64,000 bases of DNA from NCBI GenBank assembly GCA_963971405.1, contig OZ020492.1:17824204-17888203 (forward strand), in the 5' to 3' direction. The DNA comes from Psococerastis gibbosa. Lineage: Eukaryota > Arthropoda > Insecta > Psocodea > Psocidae. Positions 35,706 to 62,988 of this stretch are shown piece by piece. A program made the position numbers and the translations under genes. The notes beneath the pieces are model-generated. The model saw only the letters and a list, made by a program, of their open reading frames with translations. It was not told the DNA's origin and made no database searches. Position 1 is the first letter of the stretch. The number at the start of each line of letters is the position of its first letter.

Positions 35706-35765
35706 ATGTTAGGCGTTTACCGTTTTCTCTTGGCTTTCTACTTCCTTGTCCCCTTATTTGCTAAG
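35706..35765 (+). CDS. Exon 1: start codon and signal peptide
   Basis: Reads MLGVYRFLLAFYFLVPLFAK: a positive residue (R6), a 13-residue hydrophobic core and a small residue near the end (A19), a textbook secretory signal. It is followed at once by donor GTAAGCC. The ATG is the first in its frame after upstream stops; the upstream context is AATCCTAACACT. The whole exon is signal peptide, so the mature protein starts at or near exon 2. Confidence 0.85.
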
Positions 35766-38700
35766 GTAAGCCTTAAAATTTATGTTATTTAAATTTAAAA
35801 AAATAATTGAAGTCGTCAGGGGAAAAACCGGAAAGGTGATCAAAAAATTTTCAGAAATCTAATTTTAAAGTTTAAAGTAGCCGTATCTTCGCCTGTATAC
35901 TGTTTTTTCCCACGCCATTTGTGCAGAACCTTACTTGTTTTTCTCCAGTATTGTTACGTCATTTAAAACTACGCTAAAAACTGAACAGAATGCCACCATT
36001 ATCTCAATTTCGACCAAAAGTGCACCTTTCCGGTTTTTCCCCTGACGTCTTCAATTGTAATGAGTGTCTTTTTAGATAATAGCAAGATTAACGCATTAAA
36101 TACCATTTTTGTTAATACATAGACTGTTGCTTTTTTGGAAACTTTTTATGAATGACGATATATTAGCCGATGGATCTAGTCGCTTGTACGTGTTAGCCCC
36201 AAAACTTCATTACTGAGGTCGAAAAAAAACTGAAATTGAAACAACAGCATTTGCTGCCTTTCATAATTATGTGAACGCCACGTATTAGCTGGCAGAAAAC
36301 AAAATAGTATGTAGATGAATGAAAATAAAATGAAATGAAAAACTACTTTATTGCAAACAAAAGGCGAATAATAAGACTATAAAGTCTTGTTTTCATGCTA
36401 AATAGGTAGATTTTTTGTGTATTTTCACAGCGTTTTGCTAGAGCATTATGTCAAAAACTGAGCCCCCTCAAGCCGGAATAAAAAAAAATTTCTTTAATTT
36501 AAGGTAGGCTTGGAATAAAAAAACGGAGCGTGTGAGGGTGGCCCATCGGTATATATACAATATATTAAATGTTTAAGAATTTCCACATGTAGGAGAAGAA
36601 AAGACGAAAGTAGATGAAAGAACGGGTACAGACAAACCCGTACATGCTTTCCTAATTATCAATTAGTAGAGGTATCGTAATTGTCCCATCGTACATAATT
36701 GTCCCGTGGTTAAATGTAGATTTTCCCCAACCTACAGCAGTGGATTGATCGATGGGGCAATTACGATACATATAGTATACAGGGACAATAATATAAAGTA
36801 TGTTATGTAAGCTTATGCCTGTAACATTGTTGCTCAAAGCACTCATTAAAGGCAAGTCCGCATATCTTCTTCTTCCTCATCTGTCTCTACAGCCCTTGTT
36901 GAGCTTTGGCGTGATCGACAACACTCCTCCAGTCATCTCTGTTTTGGACGACGCTCCACCCAACTCGCGGAGGTCAGTTTATACTTCGAGGGATTTAAAT
37001 AAAAAACTCAACTAATTTTGATATTTCGTTTTTTTTCGGTAACTAAAGGGATATCTACATGTTACCCGGTGACCGAACGGACAGTAATTTTACCGGATAC
37101 CGGACACTCTAGCTTCTTCCTATCTTTTCATCTCTAGCTTTTATACTAACTGATCAATAGGAAAGCATGTACTTGGTCAAAATGTTGATTTTTTATTCAT
37201 GTGAAATAAGCATACTAAGAATTAATTAATTAATTTATACGCTCGTATTCAGTTCAATGGCATCGAACTGTTTTGGTTAAAATATGTACTGTACTTCATT
37301 TTTTCCAATTTTCCTGATACTTATGTTTTGAAAATCATTTCAGAGCGAAAATTATGAGCAACTCAATTTAAATAGCATCGTTCATTCGCAGGAGAAAAGA
37401 AATGCCGATCTTTTTGAGGAAGATCCCTTTTTTGTATAACCATCTTCATTTTCAGCATAGACACAGAAACATACAGGCGTGGATCTACGGGGGGGGGGGG
37501 GGAGGCCGTAGCAAAGGGGGGGAGCTTATTGGGCTGCAGCCCCCCCCCCCCCCGAAATGAAAAGTAGAGAATTAAATAAATCTAGTTCGGTAACATGAAT
37601 ATGTTTTCCTCAGTAAATTATAAACTTTACTGCTGTTACAATCGTAAAAACTCACTATTTCGCAACTATTTTTTCAAAAAATTTCTCCCGGGGTGACCAC
37701 TGGTTACCCTGTTTGGAGCAATATGAATATGCATTCATTTGCAAGCTTTCCTGGTTTAAAACCCCACTGTTTTGCACTTACACTTTCAAACGTTTCGCCC
37801 GGGGGAGACCCCCGGACCCCCTCTTTCGGTTGAATGCATTATAATTTTTATGAATAAGCATTCTTTTTTAGGCTTTGTAAAATCCATACTTTACTGCTGT
37901 TAAAATGCGTAAAACCCCACTATTTTACACTTATATTTTCAAATTTTTCCCCCGAGGGAAAACCCCCGGGCCCCCCTCTTAAATACAATATTATTTTTAC
38001 TTTCTAAACCATCGTAATGTTATCGTTGCATTTTAGTCCGCATATCCGCAAAATGTTATGAACCTGTGTTCGCACGGAAATAAATCCTCCAATATATTGC
38101 CGTTTGATGTGCGTATGCTATCATATATACGAGTAACACCATAACCTCTAAAGCATACACTCGACACAATTTAATTATCAGGAAATAAATTTACACTGGA
38201 TAGGATCACAGTTGCCACAGCCCCCCCCCCCCCGAAAAAACCTTGGATACGGGCTTGGGGGGGGGCTATAAGGGCTATGCCCCCCCCCCATTAGGTTCCT
38301 TAAAATGCGTAAAACCCCACTATTTTAGTCCTATCTTTCACAAATTTTCTCCCGGGGGAGACCCCCTGGCCCCCCCTTGTGCCCAATTGTATTATTTACC
38401 TAATAATGTAGAACCCCTATTACTTTGAAAATGCGTAAAACCCCAATATTTCAGCCCAATTTACAAAATAATTAATCCGGGGGAGCTCCCGGGCCCCTTT
38501 TCATATTTCCGAACCCTCTGCTGGTTCATGCGCTAAGGACACTCAGGTCATTTATTTAAAAGCTGCGTACATCCATGAGAACGGATTTCCCCACTTTATA
38601 CACTTTTATGAAAATGGTTGGAGGGGCGCCAAATTATACACCGCCCCCTTCAAAAACCTGTCGTTACGCCACTGACATGTGCCTTCCCCTTTTAAGAGAT

Positions 38701-41700
38701 CTGGGACCACCTCTGATTATATTTGCAATTTTTTGCAATCCATCTTTTTTATTCATATTTAATCTTAGCCCCCTCCTTGGTCTCATTCTAGATCCGCGCC
38801 TGGAAACATACATATGGCTAAAATGTTTATATGGCCACTAGTTTGGAATGATATGATTCAAAAATGAAATAAAATTTTATTTTGAAAGAAATAAGCCCGG
38901 AAACTTCTGTTACATTAGGTATCTCTTCTATAAATTGAACACTTACATAGGCCTATTATGTTTTTGTACCTGTATTTTTAGGAAAGCACTGAAAGAGTGG
39001 CACGCTTGTTCAGTACCGCCTTAAGTGACAAAGAATACAAATATTGGGTAAGTTTATAGTCAACTGTTGAACCATCAGTAACTATTGTAAAAGCACAGGG
39101 TCTAAGATGGCTGGGACAAGTCGTAAGAATGTCAGAAGACCGCATGCCGAACAAAATGTACCTATGTACCTATAGCAAGCATGACGGGAAGAAGACTGCA
39201 GGAGGGACGAACTAGAAACCGACCTCCGCGAGTTGGGAGTCCGTAGGTGGCTGAGCGTCGCACAAAAACTAGATAACCGGAGGAGTGTTGTCGAGCCATC
39301 AAGACNNNNNNNNNNNNNNNNNNNNNNNNNNNNNNNNNNNNNNNNNNNNNNNNNNNNNNNNNNNNNNNNNNNNNNNNNNNNNNNNNNNNNNNNNNNNNNN
39401 NNNNNNNNNNNNNNNNNNNNNNNNNNNNNNNNNNNNNNNNNNNNNNNNNNNNNNNNNNNNNNNNNNNNNNNNNNNNNNNNNNNNNNNNNNNNNNNNNNNN
39501 NNNNNGTAACACAAAATGGTGCTAGGAATATTTTTACAGTGTTGCACAGGATCAAAACATTCAATGTCCATACTTTTCTCATTTTGCGTGGACTATACCT
39601 GTAAGCAAGTGTATGTTTTTAGCGCTGGAAAAATTGATACTCATAGATGGGCTTTTAGGGATGAGTCATTCAAAAGCCGTTGCATTCAGCCACTCCGAGA
39701 ATGTGTTCATCGCCCGAAAAGAGGGTGAAAATTAATAGGATATGGTTCGCAGAAAATTGGCACCACAAAATTAAATATTTTTAATTTTTTAATTCTTTAA
39801 CTCTGCAAACCCTGGTTTTTATGGAAGAACTAAGGAACCAAAAATTTAATATTTCGTAATATACGATGCATGATGTAGTCTTCTACAACTTACATGGGCC
39901 AAATTTTTAATAACTTGCTTTGTTGATTAAATAAAAAATAAAGAATCAATAAAAACAACAAATTTTGGGGTGCTAATTTACTGCGTAGCATGTCCTCTTA
40001 AATCAATATATTCTTGCGATTAACCCATTAAGTGGGAGAAATTCTTGACAGCAATTAACCTAACATAAAAGTGATGGTATAGAAAAATTGTTAATATCGT
40101 AATACCCTTACGAAATAAAGCTAAACTATTCCAACAACCCTTCCAATTGCTTTCTGGCTATAGTAACTATAGCTGGTGGACAGGGAATCCTATTACTCGA
40201 CGGACAATCTACAAATCCGACGAAATTACGTATTCGTATCCGCTGTTTTTTTACCGCAGTCCGTATCTAATACCCCAGATGCCCCACGATTCCTCCTAAA
40301 TTTGAATTCAATCAACGCTAACTACTTAACGTGATTATGTTACTTCATGCTTGAGCGAACGCGCTAATGGTTGTGTAATTAGGAGGTCAGTCTGTTTTAT
40401 CCGCTCAGTCATTTACCCCCCAAGTACGGCGCCGAGGACTGGTGCTTTAGCTTAGGGTAGTTGCCAAAACTCTAGGTTTTCATATGGTTAGTGGTATAGT
40501 TAAGGCATAGATTTCTAAATACTTTGTAAACACTGGTGGCCTGGCTGTTTTTGACTAAAGTAATTAATTCCATTTTTCGCCAAAGACAGGAATAATATAA
40601 TGAAAGACTAAAAAAAAATGCTTTATAAGTAAACTTGTAGCTGTTTTTGCACCTGAATAATAATTCTTGTAGAATAATCGTAAATCAGACGGCTAATAAA
40701 CTGATTTTTCAGAAAGCCTGTAATTTTTTCGAATATTTCATAAGACCATTTTCATAACACTGTGGCTGTGAAACGAGCCATCATTTATTAACAAAATATT
40801 TAGAAATTTCGGCCTGAAAGGTTTGTTGAATATAATACAATGTAAACAACATTTTGTTTAAAACGGAGTCCGGTGTTTTCTTTTATTCCTCTTAAGGCCA
40901 AACCGTAGGGTTGTGGCCTTGAGCGTTGAATACATAGAAATATAATAGAACTGGAGCGGCGGGAGTCATAATATGCCTTACGAGGCACCCGTTAACCATA
41001 AGCCAAATATCAGAGATAAGTACCAACGCAAAAAATATCAAAGTCTTACACATTGCAGCATAGGAAAGCGGATACCTGGACCCGGTCAAAAACTCTGTAG
41101 TTTAGTAGTTAGCTTGTGCAGTCTATTTCCCCGCCGAATTGCGTACTTATCTTGTGCAAGCTACACTAGCAGCCATATTGATGACGGTATCCAGCCACGG
41201 GATCGTTGAATATCCATTTTATAAACAAAGCCCCGCGTCTCGTACCTGTTCCGTATTTGACTTGTATTATTTCAAATAATTGCAGTTTTACCTATCGTAT
41301 TTCTGGCGCTTTACTGTCAAATTAAGTGTTGAGCTTGTGACTAAAGTGCATTTCATTACAAAAGTTGGAGGTTTTTCTTCCCTGTGGGGCACGTAAAAAT
41401 GTTCTAAAAGGTATGTTTTAATTGCTTCATGCACAAATTTTAGACCTAAATGTAATTGTAATTGTTGGTTTAGTCAATAGTGTAAGTATGTCTACGCGTA
41501 TACTATACCCTTCTATCGATTTTTACTATACTACTGCGGTTTAAAACATATATTACGAACCCTCTGCAAAGACATTTCCAGGCCAGTCACGTGACCCCCT
41601 CCGGTTTTGCCTTAAGGCAGAGAGTTCAAAATATTTTGTAAACAAACAATGGTAGTCAATTTAACAAAATTAATTAATTCCTCCTTTCCCATCCGCAGCA

Positions 41701-44700
41701 ATGTATAAAAAAATACAAGCTTTCTAAAAAAAGACCATTCTGATTTACTGCTACTCTATGAAATCTATTGAATGCACTTTGTCAGTTTTTTTGAAACTGT
41801 ATTTCAAGGGAGAAAATATAAACTGCGAAGGCTTGTTTTTTTAGTAGTATTTTATTTGGCCATTTTCATATCTTTATAGATGTTGAGGGAGTAATTAGTT
41901 GATTTCGTCAAACTGCCTCAGTCATTCTTTGTTTTCAAAATATTTTGGAAATGTCTGCCTTAATGAGACTTTATTCTCATGTAGAACTTCTCCTGGTTCA
42001 TAAAAGTTCTTGAGTGCAGAATGTTTTTTGATGTTATTCTTTAAATTTTACCATTGCAATAAGGACCAAAATGTTGGAGCTTTTTGAAAGGTTGTGTACC
42101 GTATTTTGTCAAAAATGCTTGAGATGTATATGATATCTTATATCCTTTGAATAGCCCGCAGCATAAATTTGAAGTACACAGAAGCAAGCCCCTTTGAAAT
42201 GGGACACCCATTTAATTAGTCATCCTTTTTATCGACAACAAAGCCTTTGCTGTAAGGCGTGGTAGTATAATCTTTCACCTTTTTATATAAACCTTTGACT
42301 TTATTACCTTTTCCTTTCTAGATTTTTCAAAATGTTAAGTGTGTTTTGAAATTTTATTTCAAAGTGCCTTCCGACTTAGTAAAGACAAAGTTCATTGAGA
42401 TTACTCGATTTAGTGGCTAGAAAGTTGGTGGGCCTTTTTTAAAAATATTTATATTACAAAACTTAATGCGGGTTTTTGGGGGCAATTGAAAATACAAGCG
42501 TGGCTTAATGCTAAAAATGCCCTATTGAGGATCATGTTGGAAAAGTGCCCCGTGTCCCTTCACTCTTCAGCACACATTAACTGGAGATTTTAATAATATC
42601 TTTGACTTCGTTGAGAAATCGCAGACTAAAATGTTGAAAAACAATACCTGTATATAAATTTTTTTTATTATCTGGAACAATAATTACGAATTACGATGCT
42701 TGATAGCTTGTTAAAATAATACAATTAGCTTACTAATTCTCGTTTACACTAGTGTTGGTTTCAGAGAGCAGCGTGCATACTTTATTGGAGAGTCATTGAA
42801 AATAATAATTTCTGATAATAAAACTGACAAGTGTTATTTCCAGGAAGAGTTTTACAGCAAAATAGAAGCGCTTTTTCAAAGGGTATCATTATGAGAAAAT
42901 CAGACACCCCCACTACACGTTTTTTGTTTGTCAGGAAATACACATCATAGATTCATAAATGAGACAGCATAAAAGTAGAAGTGATGTAGATACTTTGTTG
43001 TAGGGGGCACAATAGGCCAATAGGCTTAAGTGCACACAGGTAACACCTGTACCCCAACTTATATAAAAAAAAAAAAAAAAAAAAAAAATGCCTGAAGGTA
43101 GAAATCATCGATAAAAAGGTTTCGCAGAAAAATTATTTTTTAGTCATTTTTCATTAAAATTTAGTTATTATTATTTTTTTACCCCCAGAAGCAAACTATC
43201 AAGGGGCAAGCAACCCCCCGCATTTTGTTAACACTAGTAACGACTACAATAGTTGTGAATTTAAAAGAAATCGTTGGAGTGTATTTATGTATAGTTCGAT
43301 GGTGAAATGTTAACAAAGGCCTATGGGGAGTCTGTTATGAGTAAAACAAGAGTTTATGAGGGGTATAAGTATAAGCGTCTCCAAGATGGCCGCGAAGGCC
43401 GAAGACCTTGAAGATGACGAGCGCCGAGTGCCTGTTCGTAAATTCTTGGCCAAAACCAGTACCGTAACGATGCCTCAGTCTCCATAATCGACAGACATGG
43501 CTCCTTGTGACTTTTTCCTATTCCCAAAAATAAAGAGAACCTCAAAGGGCCGTTGTTTTACAATCACTTAAAACAAACTTTTAAACCTAAGACATATCTA
43601 TAATGCGATAATGACTATGCTTCAACCTAAGTGTTGGATAGATTTACGAAAACAAAAATCACTTTAGCTTACAATGGACTGTCAGCGAGGGGTAGATTTA
43701 TTAATGGCTTGTTTGTGGCTAACTCAACCTATCCTTACCCAATGTAACCTAATCTAACCTATCCTAATTCAATGTAACCTAACTTAACATCATATTTATT
43801 TGATATAAAAATATTTTTGTTAAAAAAAATGATGAATTTAATCTAGGTAAACAGCTAACCTAACCCAATGTAACCTAATCTGGCCTATCCTAATCCAATG
43901 TAACCTACCCTAACTTGATATAAAAATTTAACCTAGCCTAATATTATAACTTAACCTGTCCTAGCCCAATGTAACTAAATCTAACATAGAAAACACGACT
44001 GCCTGGTATATTGCACACCCATTGTTAGAAACTGAGACTTAGTTGGGATTATTGAAAATTCATTTTTATAAACATGGTTGGTGGGTATATTGAACACCTA
44101 TTGTGGGATTAATACATTTCTTTTAAGATACTGAGTGCAACGCCGAGTCCCACCCTTACCGTCTATCATTCGTGGGTAGTCCACTGTTTCAAATTAGGTA
44201 ATTAATATGTGCATTATTCAATGGCGCTCACCCTCACTGGTCTATCTATCCCTGTCTCCCATTAGCTCAAGCGTGTTCATCGATGTAAATGTAGCTGATA
44301 AAAAATTAATAAGAAAAAACTTATATTAATTTATTTTAAGGTTTTTAAATACTATGGGTGTCTATATTTAGCTTATCTTCACTCAATGTAGTGTACTTAA
44401 CATTATGCATTAGCTCAAGCGTGGTCATCGATGTAAATTTAGCTGATAATAAATAATTAAGAAAAAACTTATATTAATTTATTTTACGGTCTTTAAATAC
44501 TATGGGTGTCTATATTTAGCTTATGTTTACTCAATGTAGTGTACTAAACATTATGCATTAGCTCAAGCGTGTTCATCGATGTAAATATTGCTGATAAAAA
44601 TTAATAAGAAAAAAACTTATATTAATTTATTTAACGGTCTTCAAATACTATGGGTGTCTATATTTAGCTTATGTTTACTTAATGTAGTGTACTTAACATT

Positions 44701-53700: not shown

Positions 53701-56700
53701 TAGGTTGTAGATCAACTAATATTGCTACAGCCAAGTCTAACAAACAGTAGCATTTTTAGTTTAAGATCTACATGCAAATGATAGAGCAAGTCAAGTTCCT
53801 CGCAGAATCTAGATTGTTATGGTAATTCAAAGAACATCGAAGTATTGCTACTTTCTACGAAAAAAGTGATACATAGCTTCTCTATTAAGTTAAACATAAG
53901 CGTCATTTTTTAGATTTGACCCGCTTATCACAGCGAACATAGGAAAGTTGTCCAGTAGAACAGCTGAACGTGTAAATAAGCACTTGTAAACAAAAACGCT
54001 GACTGCTATTACTCAGTCATTTAATTCCTTATTCCACTGCTGAAAATAAATTAAAATGGTCTGATAGAATGACAAAGCAGTAGAATACGGGATAATAAAT
54101 AGGCCGTGGTCGTTCTGAAAGTGTACTATTTAACAGCATGATTAACTATTACTGTACAAAATCGGTATAATACACTTAATTGCTTTTTAGTCATTTTCAG
54201 GCGAGAAAATGTAAATTTACTAGAAAAACTGGTACTTTTTTACAAAATCTCATAAGGTCACCCTCATAACTTTGCGGCTGTACAAGAATCCAAGGAATAC
54301 ATTTATTTCGCCAACATGACTTGGTCTCAAAATAATTTGAAATCTCTTCAAAATATGAAAACTAAACCTGCGCTTCAAATATTTTTCAGGCAATGCTACC
54401 CCTGCCAATTCGTCTAGCCATAGGAATTCTACCACTACCAAGTGGCGAGTATACTATTCCAAAAACTGTTGGGGTAAGTTGATTTTAAGACAACCAGTGG
54501 TGGCACGTTCATAAGGGCAGCTGCCTTCCCAAAATTGTCAGAAAAATGAGACCAAAAAAATGCCCTATATTGTTTGTTTTTCAAGCGTCTGCCAATATTT
54601 TGGAGAATGGTCGTTTTGAAACAACCACTATTTTTCTTCCATTATATTTCAATGGGAATTTAATTTGGCCACTTTGAAACGATAACCAATAGGTATAAAT
54701 AATAAAGAATGCTCACTCGTTCTTACAAATATATTTAAATTTTCTTTTCAGGTTTCAAAGTACAACAACAATTTGTTAACTATTGGTTTATTTATTTATT
54801 CCTACTGAAGTTGAACATTTTCTTTTCAGGGACTTATACCATATCGATCTATTCCACGCTTTCAAATTATGTTATCAGATCAAACTTTTGGACCATTTGC
54901 AGTAAGATTCATAAGCTATTAATAAACAGCTAGGTGACACATTATTGGATTGGCAAATGAATCTCAATTGACAGAGAACTGGATGATAGGCTCGGGTTCG
55001 AGGTTCGGTATAAAAGGTCCTGGGTCTTCCTAGTTGAGTGTAAGAGTGGGCTTTATGGCCCTAACTCCGCTAGGTTGGCTTAGTAATAGAACAATGAGTC
55101 CTTATTTTATTTATTTATTTAAAAGTAATTTTTTCTCCGTTCACGAAACTCTGATGGGTATCTTCGACGAAAGAGCAAAAAGGGCGCGTTATTAAAAATA
55201 CATACGATAAAGACTAACTGCCAATTCTACTTCTTCTTCAGCCAACGCCCATTCTTGGCTGGTTTTGACGCCGTGCCGCATAGTAGAGCTGAGTCATTCC
55301 CCCCTGTGTCGTAGTTCGGTGTTCTACCTCAGTACTATTGCAGCTGAATATTTTTACCAAATTACGGTAGCTATAATGGATGAGAACGTCAAAAAACATT
55401 CTTGTCTCTTATTGATTATCGGAATCTGGTAATTAGCCATAATTTTCGAAATTAGGTACTGTTAACTCAGTTCGCGGATGTTTGTCTTACAAGAACATAA
55501 TACAAACGGAGGTAGGTAATTTCATAAAACTGATGATGGGTCAAAAACAGAATTTGAATAAATTTAGTTGAATTATTTCAGAACTACGTGCAGTTCTGGC
55601 CGTTTGCGAAATTTCCTATAAACGATCGAATTCGGAAATTTATATGGGTATGTAAATTTTAACACTATCTAGGCTTTTATATTCCTAAATTCCAGAATCA
55701 TTAGACACATACTAACGAAACAAATATTTAAAAATATACAGAAAATGAGGCTTCATAGGAAATTAGAAGTAGTCCTTTTTTATAAGCAAATGCCTACTGC
55801 AATATTTGCTGAGATTGACAAGATTGCTGATAGGTGTTAAAATAAAAAGGACTTTCTAAGGGCTTTTCAAAAATTCACTTATGTGTTATGTTCTCTGATT
55901 CTTTTTCTTGAGATGCAAACTATGGATTGGTTTGCAGCGGATGTTCTAGTCTACTTCTCCACCCTTGTCTGTTTTGAGCGGTCCTTTTCAGTCCTTTATA
56001 GGTGTCGCACCCTAGGTCCTATGACATCCACTAGGTACTCCTTTCCTCTGTCGTCCTCTTGGGTTGGTGCCTTCAACCATACCCTCAATGATATTCTTGA
56101 GGAGCCCTTCGGGTCTCTGATTATGTCACAAAAATTCCTCCCGATTCCCTATCTTAATACATAGAGTGCACCGGCATAATATATCTTGGAGCTCACTTCG
56201 TGTCAACTTAATTTAGATTTTGCAACCAGACTATTTATTGGCTGTTTTGATTTGATATAATAGTGTCTCGCTTGGCCTATGTCCAAATTTTCGTGTAGAG
56301 GTTTTTAGATTAATGGTTTTCTATTGTTTACTAATAGTAATAATTTGTACCTACAAATGCACTTTTTTTTTATTTAACAAGTTCGTTCTATGTTTCAGAA
56401 CTTAGCACCCGACATAATAAAAAACGTCGCGGACCGCTTCCATCTTATTACGTTTCACTTCAGTCCTGTAAGTAAATATTAGCATTGAATATGTAAAACT
56501 AGTGTTATATATTCAATGATATTAGATTGTGTTGTTATTTTTTAGGAGGAAGCAGTCCGTAGATATTACCCCCCCCCCTTGAACATGGGCGTAGCTACGA
56601 TTAGATCCCGGGGGGCAGGTGCAAAGTTCAATTAAATCGATTGGGTTTCGCGGGCTTATTTGAAATGTTTTTAATATAAACATTAAAATCTTATTTATAT

Positions 56701-58729
56701 ATAAAATTCCCCGCACTTTATTATATTGTGTAAATTCATCAAAGTAAACCCAATTCAATCTAGCCTAGTGTTAACTTGTCAATTCTTAAGGGGGGACGTG
56801 CGCCATTTAGTTTCTTTTTAAAAGTAATCTGTAGTATGGCAACCCATCGAACCTGAATTGCTTAAACTCCGTTCCTATCGTGTCAATTCTTTTAAAGAAA
56901 TTATTTTGTTTCTTATGTATTTCAGCACGGAATTTACGTACCCGGTATTGAAATTGAAACATCAAAAGGGGTATGTTTTTTTTTTTTTTAAATTAAGATT
57001 TTCATAACTCAAAATGTAGGTTAGAACAGCAATACATTTCAACCTTTTATTTCAGAGATGAGACCCCCAGATCTAGAATTTATAATTATTTACACTTGAG
57101 TTACTTTATAGGCCCGTTTACTGTTTATACAGGATAACATGCAAAGCCCCTAACTTTGTATTTTCGGTTTCAGATTCTGAAACCCAACACAAGCATTTTT
57201 ACAGTAAGTCATATTAGACGACTAGACGAGTGCAAAATGTTTTCCAAATGCAGTTTCTCCAATAGCATTGCAAAACCGGAATTTCCTGCAAACTTTAAAC
57301 TATGCAATCCACTTGACATTTTTCATGTTAGCCTATTCAGTTATTTGTTATTTAAGGTTTAAAAGAAGGAATAGGTACTTCAGAGACTTTTAAGAGTTGG
57401 GAATCTTATCATATAAGCGGTTTTGACAGTAAAATAATATATACTTCCTTCATTGAAATAGATTAGTCTACATACTTTACTTTACTTATCTCTCCTAGAG
57501 TTCTATATAGGTGAGATGGGACATTCACTTATACCAAAAATTTTATATTCATTTGTGGGGCCACCTAGCTGTCCCACCACGTCTTCTTCGCTGACTCACT
57601 GGTCATCAGGAGACGTGGCAGCCAATGGCGGATCCACGGGGGGGGGGGGGGGGGGGGTCATGACCCCCTAAAAGAGTAAATTCATAAGATACATAGTAAA
57701 AAAAATGAATAAAACTAAACTTTGCAACAAAAACATTACCTTTTAAACTTTCAAACAACTTGTGACCCCCCTCCTAAATTTTCCGCTGGATCTGCCCTCG
57801 GTGGCAGGCAGTGGCGGGTTCAGAGCCATGGCCATGCCCCCCCCCCTCAGAAAAATTAGCGAACACTATATAAAATAGGACATTCTATACAAAAACCTTA
57901 GTATGGTAACATGAATATGTCTTCCAAGTTTAAATTATAAATTTTACTGCTGTAAAAATAGTAAAACCCCACTATTTTGAACTTATATTTTCAAACATTT
58001 CCCCCGGGGGAGACCCCCGGGCCCCCCTGTTTCCAGCAATATGAATAAGGATTCAAGCATTCCTTTGCAAGCTTTAAAAATCATTACTTTACTGCTTTTA
58101 AACTCCGTAAAACCCCACTATTTTGCCCGTATATTTTCAAGTTTTTCGTCCAAGGGAGACCCCCGGGCCCCCCACTGGTACCTGTCTGCATCAGGCGCAT
58201 AGGTTTTTTAAGTAATGCACTGTAAATTAATGTGCCTTGTTTCGCTAGCAAATACACCAATTGCAAAATCCCTGAAAATTAATTTGGCTTGGTAGACTAC
58301 ACCCACTTTTCCCGGAATGGCCCACTCCAAAAAACTGTCCTGGACCCGCCCTTGGTGGCAGCTGGCATCAGGAGTTCAAACAATATTTTGGGAGCATAAT
58401 GTCCCATCTCCCCTCAAACTCCGGTGTGGTGCTAATTCCTCAATGAAAGCTTTGCTATCGACTATTATTTCATGTGAACATAGATTTTGTCATAATGTTT
58501 CTATATTTTGACATCATAATTTGCCATTTTGATTCAATCTCAGATCTTTCAATACCACTAACATACTGCATTTTATTTTCAGTTTGTCAAATACGTATTA
58601 TTTGTGGTAAGTGGGTATTTAAGATGAAAATTAGATATTTAACATAAGACTTGTTATTTGCAGCATGCTGACTCTACTTTTGCATTTGGGGATGCTACTG
58701 ACAACTGTATTGCCACACTAACAATATGA
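35706..58729 (+). CDS. Secreted protein gene built from phase-0 microexons
   Basis: Joined coding exons: 35706-35765, 38982-39047, 39550-39600, 42322-42378, 48743-48829, 49283-49351, 51533-51619, 54390-54473, 54830-54901, 55582-55647, 56399-56467, 56926-56970, 57174-57203, 58583-58606, 58664-58729 (stop). All junctions are phase 0, and every exon is a multiple of three and stop-free in the used frame. The predicted product is about 310 residues: a 19-20-residue signal peptide, then Pro/Ile/Leu- and aromatic-rich short segments with no domain I recognise and few cysteines. Introns range from 57 nt to 6.4 kb and are full of transposons. The architecture resembles secreted microexon effectors of sap feeders (aphid bicycle genes), which use different sequences; a secreted, perhaps salivary, role is inference only. 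Exon 3 (alternative acceptor 10 nt upstream) and the terminal exon choice are the least certain parts. The gap at 39306-39505 may hide an exon. No convincing TATA box precedes exon 1. Confidence 0.75.
35805..36056. mobile_element. MITE with 30-bp inverted ends in intron 1
   Basis: Left end AATTGAAGTCGTCAGGGGAAAAACCGGAAAGGTG answers right end TGCACCTTTCCGGTTTTTCC plus CCTGACGTCTTCAATT, with a single mismatch in the first 20 bp. It is about 252 bp, has no ORF and lies only 39 nt past the exon 1 donor. The superfamily is unknown. Confidence 0.8.
36345..36480. other. SINE-like 3' end and orphan exon-like segment
   Basis: 36345-36400 is the TTTATTGCAA...AATAAGACTATAAAGTCTT repeat. Behind a strong acceptor (TGTGTATTTTCACAG, ending 36430) an open phase-0 segment RFARALCQKLSPLKPE ends in TAA at 36481, overlapping AATAAA. 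It could be an early alternative 3' end for the large gene joined to exon 1, but the short length makes chance quite possible. Confidence 0.2.
37474..38802. mobile_element. hAT-like non-autonomous transposon (1.33 kb) in intron 1
   Basis: Left end CAGGCGTGGATCTA and right end TAGATCCGCGCCTG are inverted (one mismatch) and flanked by a perfect 8-bp duplication GAAACATA (37466-37473, 38803-38810). The inside holds at least five copies of a unit of about 130-150 bp with GCGTAAAACCCCACTATTT and GGGGGAGACCCCCGG, and several poly-C/poly-G runs. No transposase remains. It ends about 180 bp before exon 2. Confidence 0.92.
38982..39047 (+). CDS. Exon 2 (22 codons)
   Basis: Acceptor CTGTATTTTTAG, donor GG|GTAAGT. 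It encodes ESTERVARLFSTALSDKEYK then YW. It is charged and helix-compatible, unlike the Pro-rich later exons, and would be the N-terminus of the mature protein. Confidence 0.7.
39060..39305 (+). pseudogene. RTE-like LINE C-terminus, cut by the assembly gap
   Basis: Readings GLRWLGQVVRMSEDRMPNKM and, after a frameshift, ELETDLRELGVRRWLSVAQK are the end of endonuclease/reverse-transcriptase LINEs (LRWLGHV.RM...R.PK and DL..LG.RRW...A..). It sits in intron 2 and runs into the N stretch. Confidence 0.8.
39306..39505. other. Assembly gap of 200 N
   Basis: Exactly 200 unknown bases between exons 2 and 3. A round number suggests a scaffold gap of unknown true size, so LINE sequence and possibly an exon are missing here. 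Confidence 0.95.
39550..39600 (+). CDS. Exon 3 (17 codons)
   Basis: Acceptor TACAGTGTTGCACAG, donor CT|GTAAGC. It encodes DQNIQCPYFSHFAWTIP in phase 0. An upstream AG (TATTTTTACAG, ending 39539) would add 10 nt and break the frame, so I chose the downstream one. The aromatic/Pro content and DQ start recall DQTFGPFA in the exon at 54830. Confidence 0.55.
39735..40005. repeat. Partial foldback R6 in intron 3
   Basis: GAAAATTGGCACCACAAAATT at the left and GGGGTGCTAATTTACTGCGTAGCATGTCC at the right are diverged inverted arms of the family seen at 25800-26595. Confidence 0.55.
40860..41420 (+). promoter_or_regulatory. CpG-richer unique segment, possible promoter with noncoding exon
   Basis: Within an AT-rich intron this stretch has dense CG dinucleotides (for example GGAGCGGCGGGAG, TTTCCCCGCCGAATTGCG, AAGCCCCGCGTCTCGTACC), a GCAGCCATATTGATG motif near 41169 and ends at a good donor CTAAAAG|GTATGTTTT (41410/41411). 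It resembles an internal promoter or a 5' noncoding exon. No start codon or signal peptide follows. It may instead be a fragment of an unrelated insert. Confidence 0.25.
42322..42378 (+). CDS. Exon 4 (19 codons)
   Basis: Very strong acceptor TTACCTTTTCCTTTCTAG, donor TTA|GTAAAG. It encodes IFQNVKCVLKFYFKVPSDL in phase 0. The position of the aromatic and lysine residues is similar to the short exon FVKYVLFV at 58583. Confidence 0.65.
42769..42894 (+). CDS. Candidate extra exon or early 3' end
   Basis: After the acceptor cluster TTTCAGAGAGCAG (AGs ending 42764, 42766, 42768, 42771) a frame is open for 38 codons and then ends in TGA at 42892. It reads RAYFIGESLKIIISDNKTDK, then CYFQEEFYSKIEALFQR. 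With the third or fourth AG it is phase 0, like all firm exons; with the first, most canonical AG it is not. A weak donor AGG|GTATCA at 42883 would make it internal and phase 0. If terminal, no AATAAA is near. Confidence 0.3.
   Translation, partial: QRAYFIGESLKIIISDNKTDKCYFQEEFYSKIEALFQRVSL
43085..43282 (+). mobile_element. TIR element R3 fragment
   Basis: Starts behind an A run at 43068-43087 with CCTGAAGGTAGAAATCATCG and goes to GAAATCGTTGGAG, where mariner DNA begins. The 3' half is absent. Confidence 0.7.
43290..43575 (+). pseudogene. Internally deleted mariner transposase
   Basis: EMLTKAYGESVMSKTRVYEG and, with frameshifts, RLQDGREG plus EDDER match the N-terminal DNA-binding half of mariner transposases. 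FLAKTSTVTMPQSP and then DMAPCDFFLFPKIKRTSKGR match the C-terminal catalytic end. The middle, including the first two acidic catalytic residues, is deleted and frames shift, so it is inactive. Confidence 0.85.
43700..43990. repeat. CCTAA-rich degenerate repeat
   Basis: Frequent AACCTAACC, CTAATCTAACCTATCC and CCAATGTAACCTAAT words give an irregular period of 5 to about 25 bp. The 5-mer CCTAA is the complement of the insect telomere unit TTAGG, but perfect tandem copies are lacking, so it is better called a simple-sequence-like repeat. Confidence 0.55.
44262..45863. repeat. 148-bp satellite with a five-unit higher-order period
   Basis: Eleven monomers start at ATTAGCTCAAGCGTG (or ATTAGCACAATCGTG) near 44263, 44408, 44556, 44704, 44852, 45000, 45157, 45306, 45454, 45602 and 45750. 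Each has CTTATATTAATTTATTTTACGG, ATACTATGGGTGTCTATATT and TAGTGTACTTAACATTATG. Variant marks (GTGTTCATC/GTGGTCATC, AATATTGCTG, CACAATCG) recur in the same order in units 1-5 and 6-10, so a block of about 745 bp was duplicated as a unit. It lies in intron 4. Confidence 0.93.
45895..46115. repeat. GC-rich minisatellite
   Basis: Units of about 100 bp with CAGACCACCCACGAGGGGTAG, GACGGGGGGTGGGGTAGAT and CTCGACGGGGGGTGGGGTAAG, repeated about 2.3 times. It contrasts sharply with the AT-rich satellite next to it and has several G runs able to form G-quadruplexes. Confidence 0.88.
46150..46325 (-). repeat. SINE-like repeat R1
   Basis: AAATCGCATACAAACAATTTAATG ... AGTACAAGCACGCTACCACCTTGCC, with a diverged middle. 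Confidence 0.65.
46567..46956. mobile_element. Large palindrome with nested MITE R8
   Basis: The left arm GCCCATTCCATTGACCGGCT / ATTCAAGACTTAGG is repeated inverted at the right as CCTAAGTCTTGAATGTCTGC / AGCCGGTCAATGGAATGGGC. Arms are about 80 bp and nearly perfect. Between them (about 46650-46876) is the R8 element with ends GTTTCCACCGATC and GGTCGATGGAACG and the same centre as 31315-31573. Confidence 0.85.
46965..47110 (+). repeat. Dispersed repeat related to 25540-25760
   Basis: CCTTACCAAGTTGAATCCA, GAGTCCTGGTCACATCC and TTCCCCAAGTGGTTTAAAAC in the same order as the other copy. Confidence 0.55.
47330..48688. repeat. 210-bp tandem array with tRNA-like 3' part, split by a MITE
   Basis: TGGTAGGTATATAGACAAAAT recurs at 47381, 47591, 48311 and 48521. 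Without the 502-bp insertion at 47802-48303 the spacing is a regular 210 bp. Each unit has GTTGAAGAATTAACCTCCTC, ATAACCGAAATTAGAGGATG and ATCGTGGGTTCAAATCCCACC, the latter a T-arm/B-box as in the SINE heads at 51327 and 19266. The last unit has GTCGGTTCGAATCCC, closer to a real tRNA. The array looks like a tandemly amplified SINE. It ends only about 55 nt before exon 5. Confidence 0.9.
47802..48303. mobile_element. MITE R7 (502 bp) with TA target sites
   Basis: The left end GGGGTCTTCACAGTGTTC and the right end GAACACTGTGAAGACCCC are inverted over about 33 bp, continuing with GTTATCGAGTTAT / ATAACTCGATAAC, and are flanked by TA on both sides. A TA duplication points to a Tc1/mariner-type mover. 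A relative in reverse lies at 49461-50003. Confidence 0.88.
48743..48829 (+). CDS. Exon 5 (29 codons)
   Basis: Acceptor TTAATAATTTCAG, donor CAA|GTAAGT. It starts VVASLIAPSIRYILPPIV and ends NLIIRLPNLIQ: very hydrophobic, with two Pro-broken segments. Length (87 nt) equals that of the exon at 51533. Confidence 0.75.
49283..49351 (+). CDS. Exon 6 (23 codons)
   Basis: Acceptor TTTGTTCACAG, donor TTG|GTAAGT. It starts LLIKSPSLVLYSLPRFKYLP and ends AKL. Basic/aromatic/Pro composition, phase 0. Confidence 0.75.
49461..50003. mobile_element. MITE R7, inverted relative
   Basis: GTCGGTGTTATCGAGTTATC at the left and GGGATAACTCGATAACACCGAC at the right. The interior (TGGCACTG...GCAGAACTCTATTCTAGTGCC; CGCGTGTTTCAAATC) is the reverse of 47980-48180. 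The left outer end is truncated. Confidence 0.8.
50030..50185 (+). repeat. SINE-like repeat R1, best-preserved copy
   Basis: GGCCAGGTGGTAACGTGCTTG, GGAGACGTGGCGTAACTCAAC, CTACAGAGGCGACGGAAGAGG, ATTAAACTGTTTGTATGCGAT and an A-rich tail. Confidence 0.75.
50220..50455. mobile_element. Fragment of a hAT-like poly-G/C element
   Basis: TTAAAAGCTGCGTACGTCCATGAGAACGG and ACGCCACTGG match the interior and right part of 37474-38802. The left end is missing. Confidence 0.6.
50470..50990 (-). repeat. tRNA-like SINE (minus) and SINE R1 (minus)
   Basis: 50600-50725 in reverse reads GACGTGGTCTAGTGGATAGA and GAGAACGGTAGTTGGAATCC, the SINE head also at 16565. 50810-50985 is R1 in reverse. Confidence 0.6.
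51040..51175 (+). repeat. SINE R9 body
   Basis: CGAATCCCGCCAAGCCCAG, ATCCTCTAATTTCGGTTATA, AACGAGGAGGTTACCTCTTC, TTAATTTAATGTCAGTG: the reference order for the 210-bp array units. Confidence 0.6.
51327..51398 (+). tRNA. tRNA-Thr(GGT)-like head of a SINE, probably not a working tRNA
   Basis: 72 nt fold to a cloverleaf: acceptor GGGCTTG with CAAGCCC (7 pairs), anticodon arm ACGCC-loop CCGGTTA-GGCGT, T arm GTGGG-TTCGAAT-CCCGC, short D arm GTT/GAC. The anticodon by position is GGT, but position 33 is C and not the nearly universal U. Body sequence of family R9 follows directly, so this is best read as a SINE head derived from a tRNA. Confidence 0.45.
51533..51619 (+). CDS. Exon 7 (29 codons)
   Basis: Acceptor ACTCCTTTCCCAG, donor TTC|GTAAGT. 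It starts TFQALPIRIIQAVVPLLSKG and ends EIAASTVLF. LPIR..Q.VVPL.SKGE..AS aligns with exon 8 (LPIR.AI.ILPLPSGEYTIP), so the two exons are duplicates. Confidence 0.8.
51995..53110. repeat. Intron duplication split by a TIR element R3
   Basis: TTGCAACCAAATTAATTGACATCAGAATAGTTTTTA (51998) recurs as TTGCAACTAAATTAGTGGCCATCAGACTAGTTTTTA near 52950. Two copies of GCAAAATGAAATGAGAGGCTTTGTGTT-type DNA lie at 52820-52930 and 53000-53100. An R3 element in reverse (52050-52806) is inserted between. Confidence 0.65.
52050..52806 (-). mobile_element. TIR element family R3 (minus)
   Basis: Starts GCTTTCCAATTTATACGTAG and ends AAATTGGAAAGCATGTTCGAGTAAACTCGAACCGGTTC; inner order is the reverse of 13391-14265. 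Confidence 0.78.
54390..54473 (+). CDS. Exon 8 (28 codons)
   Basis: Acceptor AATATTTTTCAG, donor GGG|GTAAGT. It starts AMLPLPIRLAIGILPLPSGE and ends YTIPKTVG. It is the clearest partner of exon 7. Confidence 0.82.
54830..54901 (+). CDS. Exon 9 (24 codons)
   Basis: Acceptor ATTTTCTTTTCAG, donor GCA|GTAAGA. It starts GLIPYRSIPRFQIMLSDQTF and ends GPFA. Confidence 0.8.
55000..55125 (+). repeat. SINE R2, 3' part, in intron 9
   Basis: TAAAAGGTCCTGGGTCTTCC, GTTGAGTGTAAGAGTGGGCT, CTCCGCTAGGTTGGCTTAG and a (TTTA)n tail. Confidence 0.7.
55582..55647 (+). CDS. Exon 10 (22 codons)
   Basis: Acceptor TTGAATTATTTCAG, donor TGG|GTATGT. It starts NYVQFWPFAKFPINDRIRKF and ends IW; strongly aromatic. Confidence 0.8.
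55890..56125 (-). pseudogene. RTE-like LINE C-terminus (minus), in intron 10
   Basis: Minus-strand reading EGLLKNIIEGMVEGTNPRGR then QRKEYLVDVIGP is the ...IIEG.V.G...RGRPR..Y......G ending of endonuclease/reverse-transcriptase LINEs, followed by ...RKA..R..WR.A.NQS-like remains. Frames are broken. Confidence 0.75.
56399..56467 (+). CDS. Exon 11 (23 codons)
   Basis: Acceptor TTCTATGTTTCAG, donor CCT|GTAAGT. It starts NLAPDIIKNVADRFHLITFH and ends FSP. Confidence 0.82.
56570..56800. mobile_element. Degraded poly-C/poly-G MITE in intron 11
   Basis: Shares TCAATTAAATCGATTGG(G/T)TTTCGCGGG, TTGAAATGTTTT and ATTTGTGTAAATTCATCAA words with 15100-15310. Confidence 0.6.
56926..56970 (+). CDS. Exon 12 (15 codons)
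   Basis: Acceptor CTTATGTATTTCAG, donor GGG|GTATGT. It encodes HGIYVPGIEIETSKG. HGIYVP is repeated exactly in the exon at 62732. Confidence 0.82.
57174..57203 (+). CDS. Exon 13 (10 codons)
   Basis: Acceptor TATTTTCGGTTTCAG, donor ACA|GTAAGT. It encodes ILKPNTSIFT. An ORF that starts earlier and reads through the donor is a chance extension. Confidence 0.75.
57622..58354. mobile_element. Two MITEs inserted side by side at one target
   Basis: GTGGCAG occurs at 57615-57621, 57801-57807 and 58355-58361. Between the first two lies an R5 copy (57622-57800, CAATGGCGGATCCACG ... CGCTGGATCTGCCCTCG). Between the last two lies a hAT-like element (57808-58354, CAGTGGCGGGTTC ... GGACCCGCCCTTG) with three GGGGGAGACCCCCGGGCCCCC-type units. 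The three copies of the target are what two successive insertions with 7-8-bp duplications would leave. Both lie in intron 13. Confidence 0.85.
58583..58606 (+). CDS. Exon 14 (8 codons)
   Basis: Acceptor TGCATTTTATTTTCAG, donor GTG|GTAAGT. It encodes FVKYVLFV. At 24 nt it is a true microexon, phase 0. Confidence 0.72.
58664..58729 (+). CDS. Terminal exon A (21 codons and stop)
   Basis: A 57-nt intron separates it from exon 14; acceptor ACTTGTTATTTGCAG. It encodes HADSTFAFGDATDNCIATLT, I and TGA. The acidic/polar content differs from the earlier exons, suiting an exposed C-terminus. AATAAA at 59009 and 59020 is 280-300 nt beyond the stop. Confidence 0.6.
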   Translation, partial: HADSTFAFGDATDNCIATLTI

Positions 58730-59008
58730 AGCGTGGAAATGAAAACTGGGTTAACCGCCATTCCGCCAAAATCATTATTTTTTAGTTATCACGATTTTTT
58801 TAAGCCATAACGCATGACATACGACACACTTGTCATCTATCTACCAACTGCAACTTCAATAATTTTGTCACTGTCGCTTGGCGCCGTTTTCAGGACATTG
58901 GCCATGTCACTTGGATCGTATTTAAGTGATAAAACTAATTTCGAATTTTTGGCGGTTAACCCGGTTTTTATTTCCACGCGTCATATTAAGAAACAAATTA
59001 GTAGGGAT

Positions 59009-59025
59009 AATAAACTTATAATAAA
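59009..59025 (+). terminator. Polyadenylation signals for end A
   Basis: Two AATAAA hexamers (59009-59014 and 59020-59025) followed by GTGTAACTTATTTTTT, a T/GT-rich stretch. They lie just before the next candidate exon (59048). Confidence 0.45.
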
Positions 59026-59047
59026 GTGTAACTTATTTTTTCCGCAG

Positions 59048-59071
59048 ACCTTCCTTACTTCGCCTGGAATT
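59048..59071 (+). CDS. Exon 15B (8 codons), alternative 3' route
   Basis: Acceptor TTATTTTTTCCGCAG, donor ATT|GTAAGT. It encodes TFLTSPGI in phase 0, so it can be joined directly to exon 14 if terminal exon A is skipped. Both splice sites are strong. It could alternatively belong to a partial tandem copy of the gene. Confidence 0.6.
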
Positions 59072-60050: not shown

Positions 60051-60063
60051 TTTCTATTTTCAG

Positions 60064-60072
60064 CGCCAACTA
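60064..60072 (+). CDS. Exon 16B: 9-nt microexon (3 codons)
   Basis: Acceptor TTTTTCTATTTTCAG, then CGCCAACTA (Arg-Gln-Leu), then donor GTAAGC. It is phase 0 on both sides. It is too short for sequence statistics, but the pyrimidine tract and donor are as good as in the firm exons. Gln-Leu also opens the next exon (TQL). Confidence 0.45.
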
Positions 60073-61129
60073 GTAAGCTTCGCCATAATATTCAACAGAT
60101 TAATTACATTATTGGTTACAATTGGTAAATTGATATAAATTACCCATCGAATTAAATAATTCATGTCTGTATTAAAGTCGTCTTATTCATTATTTTCTAA
60201 CTGGTGACCTAATTCTTGAAAATCGACAGAGCTGCACTGACTAATTCCAATACGCGATTACAATTTATTTGAGCTACCACTCGGATTGTAATTTAACAAA
60301 GATCATTTTCAAAAATTTGCGACAAAAATCAACAAAAAAAATCAAAACAGAAACTGTAAGCGGAATGGCAACTTGGCTGCCCCAAAACGAATCAAGACAA
60401 TAAAAACTTATTTTGTCCGAGGGTTAGATGTTCATTGAATTTCCTTAAGTGAATTTATTTCCACAGTACTTAACTACTACTCACTTAATTAATAAAAAAT
60501 ACACTGACCTACGGTACCAAAACTATGTTATTTTTCGTCAAACTTATAGGAAAGAAAAAACTTAATTAATTGGGTGAAGTTTCTTCCTTTATATACCATT
60601 CTCTGAAGAAAAAAAAATCAACTATCCGAATGCAGGAATGTATCAAGTTCGCTCCTAATTTAGTTGGTATTACTGTTGAAGGAAATGAAACGCACAATAA
60701 TGAGGTAACCACATAATGTATTTTTGGTCACAAAAAAAATATGAGAACGATATAAAGGAACAATATGGCAACTGATAACTAAATTAACTCAACTTGAACG
60801 CTCTAGGGTTCAAGCATGCATGTACCACCCGACCGCGCTAGCATGGTACTGGACTCTGGAGTAGGGTTATTTCTTGTTATGCAGAAAGGGTTTATTCGTC
60901 ATATTCTGGATATGAATAATGTTATTATAAGTAGAATTCCACACCAAATAGTATCGACTTAATACATTGTGACATTGTGTTACAATTTTCCACATTGGAA
61001 GACCTGATTGCTTCGCCGTATTGAACTTGGAAATGTGGATATTTATAATGAAGCTAAGTAGGATTTTATAGTTCAGTTGGTTGGGGTGGAGGTATCGTAA
61101 GGTAAACTTAGCTCGGAATACCCACCACG

Positions 61130-61280
61130 TGCATCTATTTTTTCAGCTTCACGAGTTTATCATGCATAGGAGGATTTTGATAAGTGGGGAAAGACAAATA
61201 TAATAAATAATAATAATAATATATAAATATAAAAAAACGAATAAATAAAGAATAATTACTTATTAATTATTACTAGGCCA
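61130..61280 (+). other. Orphan exon-like segment
   Basis: Acceptor TCTATTTTTTCAG (ending 61146) opens LHEFIMHRRILISGERQI and then TAA, with several AATAAA motifs just after (from about 61203). A donor-like GTGGGG at 61184 is weak. It may be another alternative 3' end or chance. Confidence 0.2.
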
Positions 61281-62094
61281 CCCTAGCGAACAATTAATAT
61301 GAAACTGACTATGCGCTACGAAGAAAGACAGAATAATCCAAAGTGAGTGCACTTGTTCCTAATAAAAAAGGGAAGACCGATGATATTATAGTCATATTCT
61401 AAGAAAACCAAATTGTGAATCAACTTTTGGTGTGTAGTCCCTTCTTTTCAGTCATGATCGGTCTACATATAACTGCGTTTCCAATGAATTGTGTATTACG
61501 CAATAAGTCATTATAAAAATGGAGTGCATCACAAGAAATAAGCCTACTCGAGTGCCATGCTAGCGCGGTCAGGTAGTATGTTGTAGGTAGCAGAAAATAG
61601 AAATAATAAAAATATACGTAAAAGGTGGCGAGTGGAGGTGTAAGCGTCTCAAGCACTATATGCAATGCAAAGAGGATATTCCTTGTTTCGCTTATTTTCA
61701 ATCAATTAAATTTTTTATAGTATTTATTCATATGCTCCTCCCTCCGCGACAACACAATGTACTTCAGATGCATATTTACAGACTTTTGGAGTTTATTAGA
61801 TTGACAGCCAGTCATTTTTAAATGGACTACATCTCAGTCAACGACAAGCGGCAGCGTCAGTGACCGCATCAAACAAGCCTCTGTTCGTTCTGATAATTTT
61901 TTTTTTCATTTTATATAATGATTGGATACAGCCTTATACAATTTTTCGCGTTAAGTTTGTGTGTACGCCTCAAGACAGGTTTTCGTCGAACATGAGACCT
62001 GTATTTTTTAATGATTTGGAATAGGTTAAATTAATCCCACCAACGCTCACCTGGCTCCCACGGAAAGATCTACTCCTGCCAGTTACTTATTGTA

Positions 62095-62405
62095 CTTATT
62101 GCCATGAGTTCCGTATTTTTGGGTTTATTTGCAGGCCACAGGAAACAGCTCATTTGTTTTTTCGGTATCTTGCTGAGTCATTTTTGTTCCCGTTTTTGGC
62201 AGTTCAGTTTTCTCCGTCTGCTTATAAACCTGAATGTCGTCTGCATAGCAATGGTAATTGGGGTTGCGTTGCAAAATCTAATTTATGTCTTGAATGTATA
62301 GCGCGAATAAAAGTGGAGCTACAATGCTGCCGGCAGACATAGAACTTTCCAGTTTGACCCACTCCGATCGTTGCCCCTCTGTGCTGACCACCCGCTACTT
62401 TCAAC
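62095..62405 (-). pseudogene. LINE reverse transcriptase fragment with YADD-type motif
   Basis: Minus strand, in two frames: AGSIVAPLLFALYIQDIN (the G..VPQGS...P.LF..YI.DI block) and CYADDIQVYKQTEKTELPKT (the catalytic YADD box). A one-base shift between them kills the ORF. It lies inside the intron before exon 17B. Confidence 0.85.
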
Positions 62406-62639
62406 CTATTAAGTGAGAGGTTCCCTGGTGGGTGTACGTGGTGTCATAGCGGACATGTCACTCACTACAAACGCACAAGGAAGCTCTTAAAGAAGTAATG
62501 GCTTAGAAGGTTAATTGGTCTGATGAGGAACCACCTGTCTAAGTGCCAAAACTCATAAGTGCCCAGAATAGTGACCAACCCTATATAAAAGTCAAACATT
62601 TGAAAGAACTAAGGAAAAATAACATATATACAGTTCAGT

Positions 62640-62705
62640 TACGGAAAGAAGAAAGAAAATTGCTTTTATTTTCCACGTGGACGAATTTTGGACCTTTCGG
62701 GTCAT
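62640..62705 (+). repeat. Short dispersed repeat end
   Basis: GAAAGAAGAAAGAAAATT then TTTTCCACGTGGACGAATTTTGGACC matches 3510-3555. The 113-codon ORF starting at 62543 crosses this repeat and then the true exon, so its first 63 codons are not coding. Confidence 0.6.
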
Positions 62706-62731
62706 TAACCCAGTTATATGCTATCTTTCAG

Positions 62732-62880
62732 ACGCAGCTTAGATACTGGAACACTTGGGGGTTTTCTATTTCCCACGGAATTTACGTCCCAGAATTATAT
62801 GTAATAATAGCTAAGTCAATTTTAACAATAAGGTGGACAATGCGCTTACTAGCAGTAGGTCCCTCCGATGTTTCTATAAT
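62732..62880 (+). CDS. Exon 17B (49 codons plus 2 nt), longest exon
   Basis: Acceptor GCTATCTTTCAG (a second AG six bases later keeps the frame). It starts TQLRYWNTWGFSISHGIYVP, continues ELYVIIAKSILTIRWT and ends RLLAVGPSDVSI. F.ISHGIYVPE aligns with the exon 11/12 junction (FHFSP-HGIYVPG) with no intron, so two exons seem fused here. At 62881 there is GTAAGC: either a donor, giving the only non-phase-0 junction, or, read through, ATG TAA, a stop at 62882-62884. Confidence 0.65.
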
Positions 62881-62936
62881 GTAAGCTATTTGGCGGAAAT
62901 AAGCTTACTTGAAGTAATTTTCTATTGATTCTTTAG

Positions 62937-62988
62937 GCCTGAAATTTGGATTGCCCATCACGACGTAGAAATTCAAGGCTATTATTAA
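62937..62988 (+). CDS. Terminal exon B (17 codons and stop)
   Basis: Acceptor TCTATTGATTCTTTAG after a 56-nt intron, close to the 57 nt in front of terminal exon A. The first base completes ATG. The rest reads PEIWIAHHDVEIQGYY and TAA. If the intron is retained, translation stops at 62884 instead, so both outcomes give nearly the same protein (about 366 or 350 residues). Confidence 0.5.

Follow-up and report, generated by a model that had tools for sequence, protein, structure and literature searches.

A 64,000-nucleotide stretch of the genome of Psococerastis gibbosa (Insecta; Psocodea; Psocidae; GenBank assembly GCA_963971405.1, contig OZ020492.1, positions 17,824,204 to 17,888,203, forward strand), referred to below in its full length as the window, carries a candidate gene composed mainly of very small exons between positions 35706 and 62988. 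The original prediction, made from the sequence alone, described a gene of phase-0 microexons encoding a secreted protein. Here, we report the exon structure, predicted product, and surroundings of this locus, which very probably holds a genuine spliced gene whose segments would be joined into one mRNA.

Microexon array

Eleven exons of 24 to 87 nt lie on the plus strand at 48743 to 59071, each a multiple of 3 in length and in phase 0 at both ends. Acceptors and donors (given in that order) were scored with simple weight matrices built from assumed insect-like frequencies, and the exons are, from 5′ to 3′, 48743 to 48829 (87 nt; 7.7, 9.1), 49283 to 49351 (69 nt; 7.6, 9.0), 51533 to 51619 (87 nt; 8.3, 4.7), 54390 to 54473 (84 nt; 8.8, 10.7), 54830 to 54901 (72 nt; 8.8, 5.2), 55582 to 55647 (66 nt; 5.4, 6.6), 56399 to 56467 (69 nt; 8.9, 7.7), 56926 to 56970 (45 nt; 9.1, 8.1), 57174 to 57203 (30 nt; 7.9, 7.1), 58583 to 58606 (24 nt; 8.4, 10.5), and 59048 to 59071 (24 nt; 10.0, 6.4). 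The acceptor of the 55582 exon is the weakest of the array, and that exon is lost at a stricter cutoff.

Exon density was compared by segment with 99 kb of control sequence. Within array limits (48.6 to 59.2 kb) that were chosen post hoc, once the exons had been seen, 11 phase-0 exons were observed against 2.57 expected (P = 8e-5), or 10 against 1.50 at the stricter cutoff (P = 4e-6). Intron 1 held 3 (expected, 3.11) and the segment from 59.2 to 62.7 kb held 2 (expected, 0.85); the excess is thus confined to the array, and candidates outside it occur at chance level. On these grounds, candidates at 38982, 39550, and 40409 were rejected, and a 69-nt, phase-0/0 candidate on the plus strand at 60636 to 60704 (acceptor 5.7, donor 6.9; chance density) was kept as uncertain. 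A 9-nt, phase-0/0 candidate on the same strand at 60064 to 60072, encoding RQL (acceptor 11.7, donor 5.98), is likewise uncertain. A further candidate at 62203 to 62253 was rejected for its overlap with a minus-strand reverse-transcriptase-like fragment, as read by eye. The predicted count of at least 13 symmetric phase-0 segments is therefore not confirmed; the 11 exons of the array stand, and outside it candidates are at chance density or, at 62203, reverse-transcriptase-like. A purely mechanical phase-0 chain comprised 10, 13, or 16 exons, depending on the cutoff.

The best nonoverlapping phase-0 chain across 35.7 to 63 kb scored 53.2. Fourth-order Markov simulation of this sequence (300 runs) gave a mean of 10.2 (standard deviation, 5.7; maximum, 33.5), and no run reached the observed score; the outcome was again 0 of 300 at two stricter cutoffs. 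A chain this long had been called very unlikely by chance, and the simulations agree. At one cutoff, lengths divisible by 3 were found for 22 of 37 candidates on the plus strand at 35 to 64 kb; the corresponding counts were 15 of 42 on the plus strand at 0 to 35 kb and, for the minus strand, 23 of 62.

Another test started from the donor: every GTAAGT in the window was taken, and a qualifying exon had a strong acceptor 18 to 96 nt upstream, a length divisible by 3, phase 0, and an open frame. On the plus strand at 48.6 to 60 kb, 8 of the 10 sites ended such an exon (those starting at 48743, 49283, 51533, 54390, 56399, 57174, 58583, and 59048), compared with 0 of 15 plus-strand and 0 of 24 minus-strand sites elsewhere in the window (Fisher P = 1e-7). 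The donor of the 54830 exon, gtaaga, falls outside this test. When acceptors were paired without a length or frame filter, 9 of 10 pairings in the array were multiples of 3; outside it, only two pairings arose on each strand, none a multiple of 3. Over 12 internal exons (the array and 60636 to 60704), frame 0 held no stop in 242 codons and the other two frames held 16 and 12 per 230 each, a difference partly built in, because openness was a selection criterion.

A genuine microexon gene that probably starts with a signal peptide thus has good support. That there is no gene here at all, and that splice-like signals arose by chance or from transposons, is extremely unlikely. The region is repeat rich, and some candidates did prove to be transposon sequence or to occur at chance density; against this stand the chain score reached in 0 of 300 simulations and the GTAAGT contrast (8 of 10 versus 0 of 39), and the 15 exons of the joined gene model match elsewhere in the window over 13 to 14 nt only (BLAST, E ≤ 0.05).

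Candidate signal-peptide-like first exon

The candidate first coding exon, on the plus strand at 35706 to 35765, encodes MLGVYRFLLAFYFLVPLFAK, signal-like on the basis of hydropathy, and ends in phase 0 at a strong donor (gtaagc, score 10.9), which bears out, as a signal-peptide-like exon, the first exon of the original prediction. A search of both strands for a hydrophobic core and a donor of at least 8 returned two phase-0 first-exon candidates: this exon and array exon 54390 when its translation starts at an internal ATG. When the donor cutoff was relaxed (at least 6) and the core requirement tightened, phase-0 ends were seen in 5 of the 15 first-exon candidates listed for the window.

The exon is likely part of the array gene. 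Secretion, also predicted, accordingly has a likely signal peptide in its favor, the support being one exon 13 kb from the array across a run of 200 N (39306 to 39505; a gap or masked sequence) in intron 1. The array could instead be real and have its true first exon elsewhere, with 35706 belonging to another short transcript (for example, to 37344) and the array product perhaps membrane bound or nonsecreted. This we consider unlikely: among the listed candidates, none on the plus strand from 35.77 to 48.74 kb is a phase-0 signal-like first exon, the two found there ending in phase 1. The intervening 13-kb intron and N run do favor such an arrangement, as do the five phase-0 ends among the laxer candidates and an in-frame, acceptor-led stretch with a stop at 37344 (acceptor score, 5.1). 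The latter, 37344 to 37439 (SENYEQLNLNSIVHSQEKRNADLFEEDPFFV, then a stop), shares its frame with the signal exon and is a possible alternative terminal exon, which would yield a 51-amino-acid (aa) secreted peptide.

Intron 1 also contains a tandem array with a unit of approximately 148 bp (44166 to 45809). An exon candidate at 45821 was rejected because it sits at the edge of this repeat, and one at 43189 because its surroundings are an inverted repeat of the sequence at 52.4 to 52.5 kb.

3′ end and joined gene model

A late coding exon on the plus strand at 62732 to 62880 (entered in phase 0; acceptor 7.5, donor 6.8) is followed by a probable terminal exon on the same strand at 62937 to 62988 (entered in phase 2; acceptor 8.0; stop codon TAA) and by AATAAA at 63004. 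The late exon could use a donor at 62880 or 62832, both phase 2, or continue unspliced to a stop at 62884. Read in phase 0, the sequence after acceptor 62937 begins GCC TGA, so that a phase-2 intron is required to bring the terminal stop at 62988 into frame. The predicted phase 0 throughout thus fails at the 3′ end, where the gene has either a phase-2 last intron or a direct stop at 62884.

The joined model, which includes 60636 to 60704 and omits the 9-nt candidate, has 987 nt encoding 328 aa with a single, terminal stop. Its introns span 56 to 12,977 nt; 13 of 14 are phase 0, and the last is phase 2. The 13 internal exons have a mean length of 67 nt. Exon skipping without a frame change, as originally proposed, would be arithmetically possible for the 11 array exons.

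By eye, an acceptor-led in-frame stretch with a terminal stop was also read at 58664 to 58729 (HADSTFAFGDATDNCIATLTI), a possible alternative gene end. A short inverted repeat adjoins it (arms, 58723 to 58760 and 58950 to 58987).

Similarity among exons was compared for 15 exons, 2 of which were rejected afterwards. The exons at 51533 and 54390 share LPIR...PL.S, a similarity matched by 0 of 1,000 shuffles, and those at 56926 and 62732 share HGIYVP, matched by 1 of 1,000; the 56926 exon also has a 14-nt exact DNA match to 62774 to 62787. These two are the only convincing pairs among the 105. They lend modest support to growth of the array by duplication of exon cassettes, which we consider probable.

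Predicted product

Over the same 12 internal exons, frame 0 encodes 1 Cys, 25 Pro, and 33 Ile in 242 residues, compared with 7, 10, and 9 and with 9, 7, and 19 in the other two frames of the same DNA. Since composition was not used in exon selection, it is a partly independent line of support. When 24 chance exons taken from the control strands served as reference, Cys was scarce (P = 0.003) and Ile abundant (P = 9e-5), with no significant difference in Pro (P = 0.14). Relative to translated introns, Ile (13.1% versus 8.1%) and Pro (8.8% versus 4.6%) were high and Cys low (0.3% versus 3.3%), with no enrichment of Leu (11.9% versus 11.6%), Phe (7.0% versus 7.1%), Tyr (4.6% versus 5.0%), or Trp (1.8% versus 1.3%). 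A Pro/Ile/Leu- and aromatic-rich product had been predicted; Ile and, against translated introns, Pro are retained from that description, and Leu and the aromatics are dropped.

The mature part has a grand average of hydropathy (GRAVY) of 0.46, with 26 basic and 17 acidic residues. The part encoded by the first six array exons is more hydrophobic and basic (GRAVY, 0.68; 16 basic, 4 acidic). The 328-aa model contains one Cys, carried by 60636 to 60704, three N-glycosylation sequons, and one dibasic pair. Amphipathic periodicity was uninformative, since the moments at both helical and strand angles exceeded those of shuffles by 2.0 to 2.2 standard deviations. The product is probably secreted and hydrophobic, about 330 aa long, rich in Ile and Pro, and almost devoid of Cys.

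Similarity searches and surroundings

Searches of 5.8 billion proteins returned no match to the 328-aa product (E ≤ 1) or to a 193-aa core (E ≤ 10), and pattern matches in viral contigs (17) and prokaryote contigs (98) were all unconfirmed; because these collections seem poor in animal genomes, such misses say little. The protein collection does contain some eukaryotic sequence, since a transposon open reading frame (ORF) next to the gene found relatives there. The joined product also had no match in Pfam (E ≤ 1) or among PDB sequences, both of which cover animals. A repeat pattern used as a possible taxonomic marker had 0 matches in genome and viral contigs. The product sequence looks new, and the architecture is of an already known design.

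The transposon ORF, on the minus strand at 34429 to 34836, had 10 relatives among 15 candidates, 3 of the 10 with an RNase H domain, and is probably the remnant of a non-long-terminal-repeat element of a kind that we take to be typical of arthropods (I/Jockey). By eye, a reverse-transcriptase-like fragment with a YADD motif was read on the minus strand at 62025 to 62342; it accounts for the false plus-strand phase-0 exon at 62203 to 62253. Repeats of 210 bp with tRNA-like stretches (47168 to 48817 and 51327 to 51399), one of which ends near the first array exon, are probably tRNA-derived short interspersed elements; Rfam and ARAGORN each reported one tRNA-like locus, with a tRNA-Thr-like locus among these repeats. 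The window is AT rich (GC content, 34 to 40% in 4-kb steps), is rich in repeats at 35 to 64 kb, and has no stop-to-stop ORF as long as 180 aa.

Comparison with known microexon and phase-0 systems

Bicycle genes of aphids contain numerous internal exons of unusually small size, almost always in phase 2, and encode fast-evolving products expressed in salivary glands (PMC9168663). They occur in Hormaphis cornu, other aphids, phylloxerids, and coccids, the coccid and phylloxerid candidates lacking obvious CYC motifs; one crystallized member has an N-terminal secretion signal, and a Cys-free member exists (PMC13041983). The present gene resembles them in its many tiny internal exons locked to one phase. 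The phase itself differs: bicycle internal exons are phase 2, whereas 13 of 13 here start in phase 0. Published classifier coefficients (PMC9168663), used as a score without a numeric cutoff, gave a linear predictor of -63.2 for the joined model and still -4.3 with all 13 internal exons set to phase 2. Aphid bicycle proteins carry CYC motifs; no CYC-like pattern was found in the joined product, with its single Cys. Identity with aphid bicycle genes was rejected on exon phase and classifier score; given the Cys-free member, scarcity of Cys would not by itself be grounds for exclusion, but phase is. The gene may work like bicycle genes despite its separate structure. Among the literature matches listed, in mostly open-access coverage, no insect microexon effector family other than the bicycle genes appeared, and a term search of an adelgid genome paper (PMC10755206) gave no hit for effector, bicycle, or salivary.

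Microexon genes (MEGs) of schistosomes combine very small, symmetric exons with a signal peptide, hydrophobic "sticky" products, and long introns (PMC4350168, PMC10526429) and are apparently restricted to platyhelminths (PMC4350168). The likeness in small symmetric exons, signal-like first exon, hydrophobic product, and long introns raises the alternative that the gene is a schistosome-type MEG and belongs to a flatworm, not to an insect. MEG exons measure 6 to 81 bp, the majority 15 bp (PMC10526429), whereas the 11 symmetric array exons measure 24 to 87 nt and the internal exons average 67 nt. The strict MEG motifs FLhhFx6Wp[KHR] and FxxLFL[IR][VDE]Fxx[DE] are absent from the product; a relaxed match to the former, FLLAFYFLVPLFAK in the first exon (W to F, polar to A), falls inside the hydrophobic signal core. 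The neighboring minus-strand ORF at 34.4 to 34.8 kb, with its presumably arthropod-typical RNase H relatives, also points to an arthropod, and a flatworm origin is highly unlikely.

Vertebrate SCPP genes (ameloblastin and kin) encode secreted proteins, and virtually all of their introns are phase 0, so that exon duplication and skipping are frame neutral (PMC6732285). In the joined model, 13 of 14 introns are phase 0 and the last is phase 2. SCPP products are acidic or Pro/Gln rich and their genes vertebrate, whereas this product is Ile/Pro rich with no Pfam match; the two were set apart by description. SCPPs illustrate that structural proteins, too, can rest on a phase-0 design, and instead of a host-acting effector the same real gene could encode a reproductive protein or one with a structural or matrix function (cuticle, silk, eggshell, or glandular polymer). 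An Ile/Pro-rich composition with one Cys in 328 residues and the frame-keeping precedent of SCPPs speak for this; the lack of a regular short repeat, of significant Pro spacing, and of any collagen-type run, together with the vertebrate confinement of SCPPs, speaks against it. We regard it as possible, on the doubtful side.

Interpretation

Overall, the best explanation, which we give about even weight, is a coding gene of approximately 27 kb for a secreted, lineage-restricted protein released from a gland. It would consist of the signal-peptide exon, a 13-kb first intron, 11 (perhaps 12 or 13) phase-0 microexons, and a terminal portion close to a poly(A) signal. Duplication of exon cassettes between phase-0 introns would have enlarged the array, and because gain, loss, or skipping of an exon would leave the frame intact, the protein could diversify quickly. 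Its likeliest role would be to act extracellularly, as bicycle or MEG proteins do; tiny symmetric exons in such proteins set a precedent for a secreted interaction role (PMC9168663, PMC4350168), and an effector-like or gland-secretion role is a tentative proposal. More speculative, and rather improbable as a whole, is an independent phase-0 family of secreted, Cys-poor, hydrophobic, effector-like proteins in an arthropod lineage, cassette duplicated, multi-isoform, and convergent with bicycle genes.

Several observations weigh against this picture of a phase-locked, gland-secreted protein. The splice-site frequencies were assumed and the array limits post hoc; phase-1 and phase-2 chains in the same stretch scored 33.9 and 25.7, compared with no more than 16.8 in other segments, because a short exon is frequently free of stops in more than one phase; and no second chain of this kind was found in the window. 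The last intron is not phase 0, and the signal exon lies 13 kb from the array beyond the N run. Exon-pair similarity reached P ≤ 0.01 in 3 of 105 pairs, with about 1 expected; Pro spacing was not significant (reached by 346 of 5,000 shuffles); and the hydrophobicity would suit a membrane protein or a structural one just as well.

Some fast-evolving genes for host interaction, overlooked by similarity searches and standard annotation, are recognizable by a microexon array behind a signal peptide. The same design in a phase-0 array of unrelated composition would point to more than one origin. Such genes would escape a search built around phase 2, the bicycle classifier weighting each phase-0 exon by -3.32. 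The question becomes testable by scanning the genomes of sap feeders and parasites for phase-locked microexon chains in any phase.

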